A stretch of DNA of 64,000 nt, taken from the NCBI RefSeq assembly GCF_900167415.1, contig NZ_FUWU01000006.1:1-64000 (forward strand), in the 5' to 3' direction. Positions within the stretch are counted from its first letter, which is position 1, and every line of letters begins with the position of its first letter. The stretch is from Fibrobacter intestinalis (GTDB lineage: Bacteria > Fibrobacterota > Fibrobacteria > Fibrobacterales > Fibrobacteraceae). Shown piece after piece: positions 33,315-39,780 of this stretch. The notes under the pieces are model-generated. The model saw only the letters and a program-made list of their open reading frames with translations. It was not told where the DNA came from and ran no database searches. The position numbers and the translations under genes were made by a program.

Positions 33315-34080
33315 CTAGCCGTTTTCGAGTGATTCCATTTGTTTGTATTTCTTGTTTTTGCCGTCCACTTCAAAAGTCATGCCATCAATCGAAAAATCTG
33401 AAACAGGTGAAGATGCCACACGGTTGTTGACTCGCATTAGCGACAGGAATGATGTTTCTCGCGGATTGCCTCTGCCGGGTTTATTTTCGGACTCTGCGAA
33501 ACAGAGCGTCGGATTGGATAGGTAGATTTTGTCCACTTTTTCTAGGAAGTCATCTTGTCGTCTACGTGACGCAAACGTGAAATGAACCCTGCTTTTTCCA
33601 TATAGACAAAGTAATCCGATATGGTGCTGCGGTCAACGCCTATGGATCTTCCGAGTTCAAAGAAATTCAGCTTGAATGGAACGCTACGGGCAATGATGTA
33701 AAGGAGTCTTTTTCACTTGACGGATCTGGCTGCGTTCATATTTGCGAATGTAGGAATGTCAACTTCTAGAGTTTGATTGACCACGTTGTCGAGACGCGTA
33801 TAGAAATTGTCTTCGTGAAAAAACGGATAATATCCTGATTTGAGACACTCCATCCATAAGGGAATCGGGCGCTTGATGCTTTCGGGAAGCGAGAATTTGT
33901 TCGTGATGATTTTCGATAATGGGACTGGCTTTATTTTTGTATGGAGGGTATAGTTTAGATATTCACGTAACGACAGGAAAGACGGAAATGTGGTTTTAAA
34001 ATTAAACAACAAGGAGCAACCAATAGAACTTCCACAAATAGTTCCCATCCTGTATTTGGCAAAGTCCTCTTTGAGAATCT
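33315..34080 (-). pseudogene. Broken DUF4143-type AAA ATPase
   Basis: Three minus-strand pieces together match the C-terminal half of an AAA_14/DUF4143 ATPase. The first (34048-33716) has LREYLNY, then SGYYPFFHED and NQTLEVDIP. The next, in the same frame after a TGA at 33715-33713, reads KRLLYIIARSVPFKLNF with an HTH-like VDRSTISDYFVYMEKAG. A frameshift near 33550 leads to DKIYLSNPTL, RETSFL and the family end FEVDGKNKKYKQ. The Walker A half is absent. One nonsense change, one frameshift and 5' truncation make this a decayed gene. Confidence 0.8.
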
Positions 34081-34237
34081 TTCAAAACACACATTGAGCG
34101 GTTCCGATTTATCGAGTTTTAATCTTACGAAATTCCATTTTTGCTAGACATGGATACATATTTAAAAGCGAGGATCTTAAAGCGTATTTTTCAAAGTTCA
34201 ATTGGTATATTGGATTCTCTCGGTTCTTATCCAAAAC

Positions 34238-35646
34238 CTATTTGAACAAATCGTCCAGCATGACTTCGCTATTGACGAGACTGGAAGTGTTCGCGTTCAA
34301 AATGCCGTAGGTTGTGACGAACGTGTTCACGATTCCTTTGCGGGTGTTTGTTTCTGCTTGGAATTCAGCCATGCGGGAGCGGATTTTGTCTGCGTATTTT
34401 GTCGATATGGGGTAGGGGGCTGTGCTGAATTTGATTTCGCAGAGGTTTATCATGCGGTCTGCTCGGTCTATAATCAGGTCAATTTGTACATTCTTGTTTT
34501 GAAAGCAGCTGACGCTTGTAAGCATCCCCGAAATTCCAAGCTTTGCTTTAATTTGTTCGCTATGCATGAGGCATAGCGTTTCGAACGTGAGTCCGTGCCA
34601 TGCGTTTATTGCGGGCGTGTTGAGGCTGTGCGTCCAAAATTGCGAATCCTGAGAACGATTTTCTTCGACAAACTTGAAATAGAAAATGCTGAAAAAGTCG
34701 GTGAGGCGGTAGATAATCCCTTTTTTCTTTTTTCCGAATGCGGCAATTCCTTGTATGAAATCGGAGCGTTCCAGATTTAAAAGAATTTTGGTTAGGAATC
34801 CTCCTTGCATCTTGCTTGCTTTTAGGATCTCGTCTCGCGTAAGTCCCTTGGGCTTTGATGCCAACAAGCGAACGACTTTCAAATATCGATCGGCAGAACT
34901 GAATAAAGCATTGTATAGCTCGTTGAACTCGTTTGCAAGTTGCCCGCCCTTAGTAAAAAACATGGTATCGATATTTTGGGCAAGGCTTTTTTTGAAGTCG
35001 ATAAGACTGTAGTAATAGGGGACTCCGCCGAAAACCATGTAGGATTCCGCAATTTGGTATCGATCCCAGTTTCCTCCGTTTTTTTTTGCAAAATTCTTCC
35101 ACTTCGTGCAAGTTGAATGGCCGCAAGTAGATTTTGGCGGTTATTCTGTTATAAAGTCCGCCTTGATTTTCAAATAGGTTTTCTGCCATCCACGATGTAG
35201 CGGAACCGTTGGCAATCAAGAATATGTCGTCTCGCAATGCAGTCCAGCCATTCCAAAATGATTCTAGCGCTTTGACAAATTTGGAATTGGGCGTATCAAT
35301 CCAAGGCATTTCATCCATGAAGATTATCTTTTTGGGAGATTTTCTTGCTTCAAGAATTTGCTCCAGATTGTTGAATGCTTCAAACCAGTCGTTCAGTTTT
35401 GGAAGAAATAATGATTTTCCATATTTTTTCAAGGCTTCTGCAAATTTTTGCAACTGTTCGCTTTCATCGAGGTGATGATCTCCGACGTAGCAAAAGTCAA
35501 ACCGTTCCTTAAAAGTCTGGTTTACAAGGAATGTCTTGCCGATGCGTCGCCTTCCATAGATGATAGCAAATTCCGATTTTGAGGAATTAACGCAGGCTTC
35601 TAGCAGTGAAATTTCGTTTGATCGTCCGATGAAATGTTTTTCGCTT
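34238..35646 (-). pseudogene. Frameshifted AAA ATPase with DUF234 (nuclease-like) C-terminus
   Basis: An archaeal-type ATPase in two frames. The 5' part encodes FIGRSNEISLL, Walker A GRRRIGKTF, Walker B KIIFMDEMPW and RPFNLHEVEEFCKK. After a run of nine A on the coding strand (near 35080-35089) the frame is lost. With one A fewer, translation continues as NGGNWDRYQIAESYMVFGG into the 266-aa piece at 35038-34238. That piece has a winged-helix and a DUF234 domain with a PD-(D/E)xK-like QIDLIIDR...NLCEIKF motif. No start codon is obvious at the 5' end. It may be decayed, phase-variable or a sequencing error. Confidence 0.8.
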
Positions 35647-35661
35647 ATGTTACTAAATCTA

Positions 35662-35737
35662 TGTAAAAAATGGAGATTTGGTAAATAATTTTATAAGAAT
35701 GATTGCCAAAAGTGTGTAAAAAACTGAGATTTGGTAA
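35662..35737. repeat. Pair of 23-bp direct repeats upstream of the ATPase relic
   Basis: TGTAAAAAA-(TG/CT)-GAGATTTGGTAA occurs at 35662-35684 and at 35715-35737, 53 bp apart, differing at two adjacent bases. The copies sit at the 5' edge of the broken ATPase gene, in AT-rich intergenic sequence. They may be operators or recombination scars. Confidence 0.65.
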
Positions 35738-35893
35738 TCATATCGCCCATGCGTGAACGTAGGAAAAATAGCTGATTGCAAAATTCACAAGAGTCTGTAA
35801 AATTTTCTTCAAAATCACCGTGTTTTTATCAACACTCTTGACTTTGTAAAAAAAACATACATTGAAGTGCGAAAATTGAAAAAAGGAGCTGTT

Positions 35894-36415
35894 ATGGCAT
35901 GGGATTCGATAGAAGCAAAATGCTTGCGTGAAACATCAGAAAAAGATATGCCTGAAAAACCGGGTATTTATAAGTGGTGGGCTACAAAAAAGGCTTTAAA
36001 AGAAATTTTGAAGGCTTTAGAACTCGAAAAAGAAAACGATGCGCTTTCCGGCATTGAGCGGAAGGTCGAAAAGGATTTGTATTGCATCTATGTGGGGCAA
36101 GCAAAATCCTTGGACGCTCGCCTTAAAGGGAATCATGTAAACGGCAAGGGAAAATCCACATTTCGCAATAGCGTGGAAGCCGTTGTAAAAAAGATTTACG
36201 GCGAACAAGATTTAGAAAAGAGAACAAATGATTTTATTGACGGACTAGAGATTGAATGTCGATTGGTTGAGCACGACAAACTGGATAGTGAAGAAACGAA
36301 GGAAATTGGGGGAACTTATCTCCGCATTTTCAACCAACAGCATAATGGGGGAAATGACCTAAGAAAAAAGTATGGTATCACCCAAAAAATGACTGATCTT
36401 AGGGGTGAAATTTAA
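35894..36415 (+). CDS. GIY-YIG-like nuclease-fold protein
   Basis: A 173-aa protein. PGIYKWWA (GIY) and LYCIYVGQAKSLDARL (YVG, then the catalytic-type Arg) give the GIY-YIG core, followed by H-x-G-KGKSTFRNSV as in small GIY-YIG proteins. Activity on DNA is inferred from the fold only. ATG 35894 is chosen because AAAAGGAG is 6 nt upstream; an earlier in-frame start lacks this. The downstream membrane gene is 26 nt away in the same direction. The stretch is richer in A+T than the flanking core genes. Confidence 0.75.
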   Translation: MAWDSIEAKCLRETSEKDMPEKPGIYKWWATKKALKEILKALELEKENDALSGIERKVEKDLYCIYVGQAKSLDARLKGNHVNGKGKSTFRNSVEAVVKKIYGEQDLEKRTNDFIDGLEIECRLVEHDKLDSEETKEIGGTYLRIFNQQHNGGNDLRKKYGITQKMTDLRGEI

Positions 36416-36441
36416 ACCATCTTCCAAAGGAGATATGATTT

Positions 36442-37884
36442 ATGATGTGGGTTAAATACCAAATTGATGCTTCCATTCCAATGTATGAACAACTGCCTGT
36501 TAACACTGAATCGAAAGCTCGTGAAATCCTTCTAGCGAGAAACCCAGGAATAAAACATTGTTCTATAAACAGAACGTTTACAGGGATAAATCCGCCAGAA
36601 TGGTGGCCAGGTGAAAAAGAAAAAAAAGAAGCGAAACGTCAAGAAGAAAATAGAAGACGTGAAGATGAGCGGAGGACAAGGCGTGACGAGGAGCAACGCA
36701 GAGAAGCGAAACGCCAAGAAGAGAACAGAAGACGTGAAGATGAGCGGAGGGCAAGGCGTATTGAGGAACGGCATAAGTCTGAAAATGATAAGCTTCGCCG
36801 GGAAATGGAAAACCTCCGTAAAGAAAATAGGGACATAGCAAGAAAGTCACGTCAATCCTCTGGGGAATTTTGGAGTGAAAGTCAATATGAAAATTTTACA
36901 GACAGGGCTCGTGATCAAAAGGACGGCATGTATGATAAAATCATGAATTGCGAAACCAATATTTTGACCGCACCGATTAAACTGATTTGTTGGCTTCTCC
37001 ACGAAATATTTAACCCGCATTCGTTTTTTAGGCAACATATTTTTTCTGTAGTGAACGTGATTCTTGTTCTTGCAGGGTTCCTCGCTTACAAGAATGAAAT
37101 GATGTTATTTGTCATCTTATGCGCTATTTCAGTGATTGTCAATGGCGTCATAGGAATAAAAACGGATCGTTCCGGCATTGCTTTGCTGATTGTATTGATA
37201 GAGGCCGCGATATTTGGTGTTGCTATTTGGATGGCGCAACCGCAATTTTTCAAACAGATTACATTGAAATCAAGTGTAAGTGAACAACAATATAATTCAA
37301 GTCAAACGCCTCCAGAGGCGGAGAAGACTGTTGTTGCATCAAAGAATGTTGACGGTCGGCAATCTGCAAATACTATGATGGATTCTCGCGATGGACGTGA
37401 ATATAAAATTGTAAAAATAGGAAATCAAACTTGGTTCGCTGAAAATTTGAACTATAAAACAAAAAACAGTCATTGTTATCAAAATATTGAAAGCAATTGT
37501 AAAAAAAATGGTCGCCTTTATCAGACTTATGAGAAAAACGCTACCAAGAATGTATGCCCTGTCGGTTGGCATGTTCCAAGTTTTGCAGAATGGAAAATGT
37601 TGCTGAAAAATGTTGGGTTGAAGCAAAAATGTGAAAATTTTGGATATGAAAATGAAACGGGGAATGAATGCGATTATCTTGAATGGAATAAAGCGACTAA
37701 GGTTCTTAATCGAAAGGGCTTTGGGATAATTATGGGTGATGAATTTGGAAGTACCGATTGGACAGTTTTTGTTGCGAATAAAGCTCGCGATAATGTAATT
37801 TGCTTTTCTGACCATAACAAAGGTAGTGATAATTGTTTCCAAGATTCAATGGGCGAGTACTATATTCGTTGCGTCATGAACTAA
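36442..37884 (+). CDS. Membrane protein with coiled coil and FISUMP domain
   Basis: A 480-aa protein. Residues 1-55 are an unrecognised domain; ~55-135 are a highly charged coiled coil with two 25-aa repeats (EAKRQEENRRREDERR); three hydrophobic helices lie at about 198-216, 219-237 and 246-266; ~312-478 form the Fibrobacter succinogenes major paralogous domain (MDSRDGREYKIVKIGNQTWF, then AENLNY, CPVGWHVPSFAEW, MGEYYIRCV). With N-terminus inside and three helices, the FISUMP domain would face outward. The function of FISUMP is unknown. This is the clearest lineage marker in the window. It is probably co-transcribed with the GIY-YIG gene. Confidence 0.88.
   Translation: MMWVKYQIDASIPMYEQLPVNTESKAREILLARNPGIKHCSINRTFTGINPPEWWPGEKEKKEAKRQEENRRREDERRTRRDEEQRREAKRQEENRRREDERRARRIEERHKSENDKLRREMENLRKENRDIARKSRQSSGEFWSESQYENFTDRARDQKDGMYDKIMNCETNILTAPIKLICWLLHEIFNPHSFFRQHIFSVVNVILVLAGFLAYKNEMMLFVILCAISVIVNGVIGIKTDRSGIALLIVLIEAAIFGVAIWMAQPQFFKQITLKSSVSEQQYNSSQTPPEAEKTVVASKNVDGRQSANTMMDSRDGREYKIVKIGNQTWFAENLNYKTKNSHCYQNIESNCKKNGRLYQTYEKNATKNVCPVGWHVPSFAEWKMLLKNVGLKQKCENFGYENETGNECDYLEWNKATKVLNRKGFGIIMGDEFGSTDWTVFVANKARDNVICFSDHNKGSDNCFQDSMGEYYIRCVMN
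36628..36777 (+). repeat. 75-bp tandem duplication in the coiled coil
   Basis: Two adjacent 75-bp units, about 90 percent alike, encode EAKRQEENRRREDERR(T/A)RR. Expansion by slippage would lengthen the coiled coil in steps of 25 residues. Confidence 0.8.
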
Positions 37885-37936
37885 CCCTCAGACTGTTTCC
37901 ATAAAATGGTTACAGATTCAAAAGTGAAAAAATTTA

Positions 37937-37965
37937 TTGCGCCTCTTTGAAGGAGCGTATATAAT
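37937..37965 (+). promoter_or_regulatory. Promoter of the pectate lyase gene
   Basis: TTGCGC (37937-37942), 17 nt, TATAAT (37960-37965). It is about 100 nt before the start codon. The -35 is weak, which would suit an activator or other control. Confidence 0.45.
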
Positions 37966-37981
37966 TCCTAAAATTTTGAAG

Positions 37982-37999
37982 AGTTGTCAGCGGACAACT
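37982..37999. promoter_or_regulatory. Operator-like palindrome before the pectate lyase gene
   Basis: AGTTGTC-AGCG-GACAACT, a perfect 7-bp inverted repeat with a 4-nt spacer, about 16-34 nt downstream of the TATAAT box. Its position fits a repressor site or a short mRNA hairpin. Confidence 0.5.
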
Positions 38000-38067
38000 G
38001 AAAATAGAAGGGAGTTTTCTGGTGTTTGTTGTTGAAAATAATTTATGGGAAAATGCGGAGATTTTTT

Positions 38068-39780
38068 ATGTTTTGGAAATTTATCGTTTTACTTGCCTTC
38101 TTTTGTACATTTGCGATGGCGACGCCGCAGATTCGCTTAGAGGGAATGGTTGCAGATTTGGCGGGCTTTCCCATTGAAAACGCCCAAGTTCGTTTAGTGA
38201 AAAATCATTTGAATGCTTATACGGATTCCAATGGCTACTTTTTGCTCTTTCAAGAAGAAACGGATGTCTTGCGTCAAAGTAATTTTGCGGTAGAAAATCC
38301 TCGTTTAAAACCCGTTTTCAAAGATGGTTTTGTTCGTCTGGGAAATTTTGATTTAAAAGGGCGTTTTGTGCGTTCGTCGTTGGAAATGAAGTTTTTGAAC
38401 GCCTCCTCCGAATCTTTGCCGCGCTTGTTTTTGAAAACCTCTATTTTTGAAGATTCGCTTGTGGTTTCTAAAGAGGGATTTTTGTCGCAGTCGTTTGTCG
38501 TGTCGCAACCGGTGGATTCGCTTTCCATTGTTTTGGATTCTTTGCCGCTGGCGGCTATTTTAAAACGTGGAGCAGGAAGTTCTAATCAAATTGTGGAACA
38601 GGGAGCGCCAATTACGGAATATTTTTTTGATTGCCCCAATGCTAAAGAAATAAAAATTACCGGTGTGCCCGCGGGTATTTTGGCCGTCACGGATTCGGTA
38701 AAATCGACAATATCGTTTTCGGGAAAAGCGGAAGCGGACACGGGCCTATATGTTTATACGATTCGAGTTGTCGGCGAATATAATGCGGTAGAGCGGCAGG
38801 GTTCTTTTCGCATTGTCCAAAAAACAATTCCGAAAATCGTACCGGATGGTTATGCTATGGTGAACGGCGTGACTACAGGCGGCGAGGGAGGGGACACGGT
38901 TGAAGTTTCTTCTTTTGCGGATTTCAAGAAGGCGGTTCAGGCGGCGGAAGCCAAGGTCGTTGTCGTCAAGGGAACGGTTAAAACTACAGATGGAGACGGT
39001 TACGGTTTGCGCATCGCAGCGAATAAAACTATTATGGGAAAAGACAGTTCGGCAACTATTTATGGCGGGCTTGCCATCACGGGAGTTTCTAATGTCATCA
39101 TTTACAATTTGAATATTCACGGTACTTACCTGAATCCGGGACCAAGCGATGGCATTGCCGTGAATAATTCGCATCATGTTTTTCTTTCGCACTTGAATAT
39201 CTGGGATGCGGAAGATGGCAATTTGGATATTACAAATCAATCCAGTTATGTCACAGTCTCTTGGGTGAAATTTTGGTACACCGACAAAAATCATCCGCAC
39301 CGGTTGAACGCTTTGATTGGCAGCGGCGCCGCGGACCATCCGGAAGATTATGGCAAGTTGAAAGTCACTTATCACCACAACTGGTTCAGCACTCTGGTGA
39401 ACGAGCGTATGCCGCGCGTGATGTACGGGAACGCCCATATTTTCAATAATTATTATCATGCGCCTGGCAATTTATATTGTATCGGTGTCGGTTCTTACGC
39501 ATCGGTTCTCATCGAAGGAAATTATTTTAAAGAGGTACAGAGTCCGCATTTGTTTATGTACAATATCTACGCAAATATTGTGGCTCGAAATAATGAATAC
39601 GACAATGTGACGGGAAATAAAGATGTCGGAGCCTTAGGAGAACGCTACATTACCACGGATCCCTATACTTTGATAGCGACTCCTGTTACTTTGGATTCGG
39701 TGCCTTACGAATATGAATTAGACAAAGCCGAAGATGTGCCGCAAAAAGTGATGCAAGGTGCGGGGCCGCATTCGTTGTAA
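38068..39780 (+). CDS. Secreted pectate lyase-like protein (PL1 fold)
   Basis: 570 aa. Signal peptide MFWKFIVLLAFFCTFAMA; residues ~22-70 resemble a carboxypeptidase-regulatory Ig-like domain. The C-terminal half (~255-530) is a right-handed beta-helix of the PL1 pectate lyase type: GGEGGDTVEVSSFADFKKAV, NVIIYNLNIHG, VNNSHHVFLSHLNIWD, and NERMPRVMYGNAHIFNNYY, which carries the expected Arg. The classic vWIDH motif reads VSWVKFWY, and the second Arg of RxPxxR is Met, so catalysis is not certain. ATG 38068 has CGGAG 7 nt upstream. Role inferred: cleavage of polygalacturonate in plant walls. Confidence 0.82.
   Translation: MFWKFIVLLAFFCTFAMATPQIRLEGMVADLAGFPIENAQVRLVKNHLNAYTDSNGYFLLFQEETDVLRQSNFAVENPRLKPVFKDGFVRLGNFDLKGRFVRSSLEMKFLNASSESLPRLFLKTSIFEDSLVVSKEGFLSQSFVVSQPVDSLSIVLDSLPLAAILKRGAGSSNQIVEQGAPITEYFFDCPNAKEIKITGVPAGILAVTDSVKSTISFSGKAEADTGLYVYTIRVVGEYNAVERQGSFRIVQKTIPKIVPDGYAMVNGVTTGGEGGDTVEVSSFADFKKAVQAAEAKVVVVKGTVKTTDGDGYGLRIAANKTIMGKDSSATIYGGLAITGVSNVIIYNLNIHGTYLNPGPSDGIAVNNSHHVFLSHLNIWDAEDGNLDITNQSSYVTVSWVKFWYTDKNHPHRLNALIGSGAADHPEDYGKLKVTYHHNWFSTLVNERMPRVMYGNAHIFNNYYHAPGNLYCIGVGSYASVLIEGNYFKEVQSPHLFMYNIYANIVARNNEYDNVTGNKDVGALGERYITTDPYTLIATPVTLDSVPYEYELDKAEDVPQKVMQGAGPHSL

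Follow-up and report, generated by a model that had tools for sequence, protein, structure and literature searches.

The systems closest to the locus analysed here are built around GIY-YIG nucleases. SNIPE is described as a GIY-YIG nuclease that is bound to the membrane and cleaves phage DNA as it is injected (PMC13190303), and CMoRE / PD-T4-3 as a modification-dependent GIY-YIG nuclease (PMC12923530); R.Eco29kI is a GIY-YIG type II restriction enzyme, and PDC-M57 is a PADLOC candidate made of a DUF6884 protein and a GIY-YIG protein, on which our literature search found no paper. DUF6884 is described as YaaA-like and B. subtilis YfjM as interacting with DNA lesions, with base flipping modelled (PMC11701544), and the same domain is reported as dpdC in 7-deazaguanine DNA-modification islands (PMC11888242). 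The other family involved is FISUMP (Fib_succ_major), a signature surface family of Fibrobacter: Table 4 of PMC4704652 counts 54 FISUMP proteins for F. succinogenes S85, where bacteria average 0.1, and the same source lists them as cellulose-binding proteins. A literature search on FISUMP itself found no paper.

We considered as the window a 64,000 nt-long stretch of a Fibrobacter intestinalis contig (NZ_FUWU01000006.1, positions 1 to 64,000), in which a gene for a 173-aa GIY-YIG protein is followed by a gene for a 480-aa membrane FISUMP protein. As far as SNIPE is described in PMC13190303, this pair shares with it a GIY-YIG nuclease domain and a membrane anchor, but differs in having two chains, three hydrophobic helices and a FISUMP domain, and in showing no DUF4041, which neither window protein matched at E 1. 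CMoRE / PD-T4-3 is likewise a GIY-YIG protein of defence type; the 173-aa protein, however, carries GIYKW and no GIYxY motif as described in PMC12923530, and its length would leave little room for the C-terminal sensing domain of CMoRE. The structure of R.Eco29kI matches the model of the 173-aa protein (Z 5.5-5.9 over 113-120 residues), but at only 15-17% identity, and the methyltransferase that an Eco29kI-type system would have beside it was not found among the three neighbouring ORFs scanned. As regards PDC-M57, the DUF6884 neighbours of relatives of the window nuclease match its PDC-M57A model, whereas the window pair has a FISUMP neighbour, no DUF6884 that we could find and no PDC-M57B match. 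The 480-aa partner, finally, has the full FISUMP domain of the FISUMP / Fib_succ_major surface proteins but, unlike them, an N-terminus without a hydrophobic stretch and three internal hydrophobic helices.

The GIY-YIG protein and its FISUMP partner

Both genes are plus-strand ORFs that run from an ATG to a stop codon, each with its own AAAGGAG and with profile-matched domains (Table 1), so that the two genes proposed by the sequence-only reading can be considered real; the GIY-YIG gene might also begin further upstream, with a GTG at 35867. The description of the pair as an AT-rich two-gene unit was also borne out, the GC content being 39-40% in the four 2-kb windows covering 34001-39000, against 44-54% in the remainder of the window, and the gap between the genes 26 bp. 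Since our scan gave no terminator-like site in this gap, the two genes are likely co-transcribed on a single transcript, despite one promoter-like match there (36411-36439, 9 of 12 positions; the same scan gave 10 such matches against 6.9 expected).

Table 1. Features of the two-gene unit, in window coordinates.
Feature	Position	Strand	Evidence
Shine-Dalgarno-like AAAGGAG ahead of the GIY-YIG gene	35882..35888	+	sequence
GIY-YIG nuclease-fold protein, 173 aa, GIY_YIG_2 family	35894..36415	+	Pfam, model, fold match, residue conservation
Shine-Dalgarno-like AAAGGAG ahead of the FISUMP gene	36426..36432	+	sequence
Membrane FISUMP protein, 480 aa	36442..37884	+	ORF, TIGR02145, PF09603
Long charged helix / coiled coil, aa 56-139 of the FISUMP protein	36607..36858	+	model pLDDT
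75-bp (25-aa) tandem repeat, 1.9 copies, within the coiled coil	36627..36767	+	sequence
Three predicted transmembrane segments, aa 198-216, 221-239, 246-264	37033..37233	+	hydropathy
FISUMP domain, aa 311-480, presumably outside the inner membrane	37372..37881	+	TIGR02145

A defence-island setting, which the sequence-only reading proposed to check, is not clear: the surrounding genes are mostly taken to be of housekeeping type, and the PDC-S27 gene near the pair looks broken in this assembly, its two ORFs being in different frames. The PDC-S27 match (E 9e-99 and 4e-50) lies at 34238-35453 on the minus strand, split across these two overlapping ORFs. PDC-S01/S27 neighbours were anyway dropped as evidence of a defence island, these ATPases being too common in rumen genomes (PMC13356809) to count near such loci.

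The 173-aa protein matches the Pfam family GIY_YIG_2 (PF20815) with E 2.2e-12 and 47.7 bits, against a cut-off of 22.4; its match to PF01541 is below the cut-off of that family. The predicted structure, obtained with a nine-row alignment, has a pLDDT of 83.3. When this model was used in a fold search, the top 11 rows were all GIY-YIG proteins (rmsd 2.5-4.8, 84-120 residues aligned), with Z 5.5-7.2, in a tool for which Z under 8 is by itself weak evidence, and the next row fell to Z 2.1. T4 EndoII, UvrC, R.Eco29kI and a plant Grx N-terminal domain (row 7, which we assumed to be a GIY-YIG protein) were among these neighbours, and plain Foldseek also ranked R.Eco29kI first, but weakly (E 0.35).

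We aligned 28 relatives, in all of which Gly24, Tyr26, Tyr66, Gly68, Arg76 and Asn147 (window numbering) are invariant, while position 81 carries His in 23, Asn in 4 and a gap in the remaining one. The roles of the catalytic Tyr, Tyr, Arg and Asn were assigned by analogy with known GIY-YIG enzymes. A Glu is present 12 or 13 residues ahead of the Asn147 position in 25 of the 28, including the 173-aa protein, where E134 is 13 residues before N147 and further Glu residues are at 14 and 10; in L012, L013 and L016, which come from a single FISUMP array, the catalytic Glu is out of its usual register. Hence the 173-aa protein has the GIY-YIG nuclease fold, as claimed from the sequence, with both the above-cut-off GIY_YIG_2 profile and the match to solved structures agreeing on it, and most of the active-site residues, the Arg being invariant in the alignment; it may act as a nuclease. 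Other searches with this protein returned no match in PHROGs, nothing by single-sequence scans of the genome_contigs, plasmids and phages sets, and nothing clear by sequence in the PDB; profile A1 of the family gave 21 of 26 stretches in genome_contigs and had no success in viral_contigs.

The full FISUMP domain of the 480-aa partner is given by TIGR02145 (E 8.6e-35, 121 bits against a cut-off of 41.65), together with PF09603 (E 1.1e-17). Its single-sequence model is poor outside the coiled coil, with a mean pLDDT of 50.8, and reaches block means of 86-94 over aa 61-130 of the long helix. Hydropathy, helix model and TIGR02145 thus agree with the proposal of a three-helix membrane protein with a coiled coil and a FISUMP domain, the coiled coil probably lying inside and the FISUMP domain outside. 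The part of the proposal that made it a membrane sensor fared worse: its first 273 aa had no match in the 166 other Fibrobacterota genomes, viral contigs or plasmids, and the FISUMP neighbours of the nuclease elsewhere start, by eye, like lipoproteins (L011, L012 and L013, with LPAM_1 just under the cut-off in L012) or like secreted proteins with a signal peptide (L093-L095). Three internal hydrophobic helices were found in this protein only, among the FISUMP ORFs of the window genome that we examined (those with the AENL motif). A PHROGs match of the partner (E 0.009) was disregarded, as it begins in the coiled coil.

The 75-bp repeat of the coiled coil is in frame, and its copy number could differ among strains. 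Another FISUMP protein of the window genome (L032, contig C108) begins, as judged by eye, with a zinc-ribbon-like motif, and none of its segments passes the hydrophobicity threshold that we applied. In phages, the FISUMP domain was seen as partial matches in two records from uncultured phages, alike in length and in position.

Neighbours of the nuclease gene

Of 167 Fibrobacterota genomes, 12 (the window genome counted) carry the nuclease by profile search; all 12 belong to the genus of the window, g1, or to genus g6. Another family-wide search gave 10 of 167 and missed the match of the window genome, which was known from a different search; we therefore considered such family searches as lower bounds and used the profile count. 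The genomes are one per species, seven of them (G108, G115, G116, G107, G075, G125 and G141) being 80-87% complete, and L060, L061 and L064 were left out because their contigs are those of G116, G125 and G115.

In 7 of the 12 nuclease loci (6 of 11 without the window), the nuclease gene is directly followed by a FISUMP gene on the same strand. The gap between nuclease and FISUMP genes is 26 bp in the window, 7 in L011, 25 in L012, 8 in L013 and 4 in L093, whereas L094 and L095 have a 77-bp overlap if the longest start is taken and a 10-bp gap if an inner ATG is taken. As for the remaining loci, L016 has a FISUMP gene 87 bp upstream of the nuclease and a CAP-domain protein downstream, L014 and L015 have only DUF6884 beside the nuclease, L018 has neither, and in L017 the nuclease is at a contig end. 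In G096, GIY-YIG (L017) and DUF6884 (L144) each lie at the end of a contig, and their orientations would fit adjacency across an assembly break. In L011 (7786-8673, genome G118) the ORF after the FISUMP neighbour encodes a uracil-DNA-glycosylase-superfamily protein (E 1.8e-9).

FISUMP is abundant in these genomes, with 48 matches in the window genome and 22-150 in the 11 others, by a profile built from 24 sequences of 30 window-genome loci. Assuming one gene per kb and counting FISUMP domains as genes, a downstream same-strand FISUMP would be expected by chance in 0.30 of the 12 loci, and the probability of at least 7 is 3e-9; without the window (6 of 11) it is 1e-7, and by lineage (3 of 7) 8e-4. 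As a control we considered 15 other GIY-YIG (PF01541) matches from the same genus, six genomes being covered (one match below the cut-off and with stops, besides eight short proteins and six of UvrC size, among which some are mutual orthologues and so not independent), none of which had FISUMP in flanks of about 1.5 kb. Hence the nuclease-FISUMP adjacency recurs within the phylum far above chance, and the pair is not one whose genes are rarely adjacent in other genomes, an outcome that would have told against the sequence-only reading. In the nuclease tree, in which 5 of 25 branches are starred and from which L074 and L079 were omitted because of broken or short ORFs, the FISUMP-linked proteins need three label changes, L093, L094 and L095 grouping apart with modest support.

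Outside Fibrobacterota the neighbour is a different one. Among 18 loci from Spirochaetota, Bacillota and Lentisphaerota (L074 and L079 kept in the count), DUF6884 lies within 230 bp of the nuclease relative, on the same strand, in 14, in 13 upstream and in one downstream; the gap is 228 bp in L079, and the DUF6884 ORF of L071 is only 102 aa long. As seeds of the DUF6884 profile we took sequences from 10 loci chosen by pattern. The FISUMP profile gave no match at any of the 18 outside loci, within the flanking DNA scanned. Inside the phylum, DUF6884 is upstream of the nuclease in 5 of 12 loci, and a three-gene unit of DUF6884, GIY-YIG and FISUMP is shared by two genera (G141 against G075 and G129; 77-78, 79-80 and 69% identity). 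No DUF6884 was found by profile in the window, nor in the window genome, by a type of search that missed one known match on another occasion.

All four DUF6884 proteins tested match PDC-M57A of PADLOC (E 2.5e-23 to 3.6e-47), with weaker matches to DpdC. None of the five tested GIY_YIG_2 proteins adjoining DUF6884 matches PDC-M57B, and neither window protein matches any PADLOC model at E 1, PDC-M57B included. The branch of GIY-YIG proteins beside DUF6884 thus falls outside the PADLOC models tested here. In two further Fibrobacterota loci (L146:6235-7369 and L147:5723-7203), DUF6884 is beside another type of GIY-YIG protein, which does match PDC-M57B (6.3e-93 and 2.5e-50). Since the neighbours of its relatives match PDC-M57A, while the window branch has neither a PDC-M57B match nor DUF6884, the nuclease lineage resembles this predicted defence pair and the window pair itself is a non-member. 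The suggestion of a defence arrangement was therefore upheld in part, for relatives that pair with a predicted defence protein, and not for the window proteins, which no PADLOC model matches.

A variable array slot and the explanations of the pairing

G116, G115 and G108 share a FISUMP array and have, at the same place in it, GIY-YIG proteins that are 62, 46 and 46% identical, whereas further on in the array a 204-aa gene is 86-95% and a GH5 gene 92-95% identical. The two FISUMP genes upstream share 78-100% identity across their first five eighths and 20-89% across the last three, and the gene directly downstream of the GIY-YIG gene also differs among the genomes; the variable zone hence extends beyond the GIY-YIG gene, whose divergence does not exceed that of the rest of it. 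G107, whose DNA is 94% identical to a 1.2-kb probe from the array, carries in the slot genes for 104 and 573 aa instead of the GIY-YIG gene (L142:6552-8593), and the FISUMP protein after this cassette is, past the first eighth, 98-100% identical to that of G115. Different contents thus occupy one array slot. Exchange by recombination would account for them, and the G107 cassette with its near-identical next FISUMP is its clearest sign. The 573-aa protein had no match above cut-off in Pfam and none in PADLOC, NCBIfam, PHROGs, the PDB or plasmids; its putative assignment to defence comes from a motif that we take to be SIR2-like. The two upstream FISUMP genes still vary over their last three bins (29-88% identity) in G107, an 81% complete genome that gave no GIY-YIG relative, so that the nuclease seems unneeded now for variation of the FISUMP ends. 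Across L012, L013, L016 and L142, FISUMP C-terminal parts often differ sharply, with N-terminal parts mostly above 90% identical.

We tentatively favour, at a confidence somewhat short of even, an exchangeable nuclease of defence type that is carried in FISUMP clusters beside a FISUMP partner with a role of its own. The GIY-YIG gene would be a horizontally exchanged nuclease of the GIY_YIG_2 family, whose relatives in other phyla form with DUF6884 a PDC-M57-like two-gene unit, probably directed against phages or plasmids. In Fibrobacteraceae it would often be carried in FISUMP clusters, transcribed with the next FISUMP gene and swapped by recombination inside the clusters; the nuclease would protect the cell by cutting incoming DNA, and the FISUMP protein, acting independently, would retain its surface role. 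The low GC of the pair, the DUF6884 pairing, the FISUMP adjacency and the variable slot count for this explanation, while the lack of PADLOC and PDC-M57B matches and of DUF6884 in the window genome, as well as the out-of-register Glu in L012, L013 and L016, count against it. Recurrent nuclease genes in FISUMP clusters would tie surface-protein variation to conflict with mobile DNA.

The pair could instead be a dedicated membrane defence, in which the FISUMP protein senses the cell surface or a phage and, through a coiled coil in the cytoplasm, tethers the nuclease to the inner membrane, where DNA would be cut during injection as by a split form of the single-chain SNIPE; that we regard as rather unlikely. 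The order of coiled coil, three hydrophobic helices and FISUMP domain would suit such a protein, as would the 26-bp spacing and the recurrence of the pairing, and since SNIPE is membrane-bound and cuts phage DNA at injection (PMC13190303), a split SNIPE-like pair is attractive for the window alone. The lipoprotein-like and secreted-like FISUMP neighbours of L011-L013 and L093-L095, however, cannot hold a cytoplasmic nuclease, the first 273 aa of the partner have no relative in the sets searched, and neither window protein matches DUF4041 at E 1. Mere hitch-hiking, in which a short mobile gene often lands in variable, gene-rich FISUMP clusters and shares no function with them, would agree with the abundance of FISUMP and with the many unrelated genes interspersed among FISUMP genes in the 20 clusters sampled; it fits poorly with the same-strand spacing of 4-26 bp in 7 of 12 loci (depending on start choice), with the DUF6884-GIY-FISUMP unit conserved in two genera and with the 15 control loci, and we give it a low probability.

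A free-standing homing-type or recombination nuclease, modelled on the free-standing GIY-YIG homing enzymes of T4-type phages, would cut FISUMP genes and drive gene conversion, so that the surface genes diversify and the nuclease spreads along. The single variable zone formed by FISUMP C-terminal ends and GIY-YIG gene in the array of G115, G116 and G108 speaks for this, and so does a second GIY-YIG-like family among FISUMP genes (below). It is opposed by the variation of FISUMP ends in G107, by slot alleles that are divergent rather than copies of a single spreading gene, and by the DUF6884 pairing elsewhere, and we consider it improbable. Since divergence among the GIY-YIG alleles does not exceed that of the adjoining FISUMP ends, the exchangeable defence-type nuclease is weakened as an explanation, and hitch-hiking and recombination are slightly strengthened.

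A second GIY-YIG-like family among FISUMP genes

On contig C64 of the window genome (L148:3707-8843), a FISUMP gene, a 190-aa GIY-YIG-like gene, a FISUMP gene, a 219-aa GIY-YIG-like gene and a FISUMP gene follow one another. The 190-aa and 219-aa proteins have no Pfam match; they show a GIY...YIG pattern by eye and weak similarity to UvrC (E 0.004-0.04). Among the 167 genomes this second family was found only in the window genome and in G140, where the upstream neighbour is a below-cut-off match to Lcl_C, with an 8-bp overlap on the longest-start reading. Lcl_C, presumably the former DUF1566, also matches one FISUMP protein in this analysis, and DUF1566 is reported to be similar to Fib_succ_major (PMC4159848).

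It is doubtful, though conceivable, that the FISUMP clusters of Fibrobacteraceae form a combined surface-and-nuclease immunity locus. At least two GIY-YIG families would then share operons with lectin-like FISUMP proteins as their dedicated partners, and would either cleave incoming DNA where FISUMP marks the envelope or make FISUMP diversify, with cassettes swapped between strains.

More distant relatives of the second family occur on plasmids, in 15 records; in the Prevotella plasmid record, no FISUMP-like neighbour was seen among the examined ORFs of 120 aa or more. FISUMP-like domains are present in Bacteroidota as well, of which this record was the one covered for the pairing. In G140, an MksE-like gene lies 2.6 kb downstream, with a MukB-like gene (JetC model, E 2e-6).
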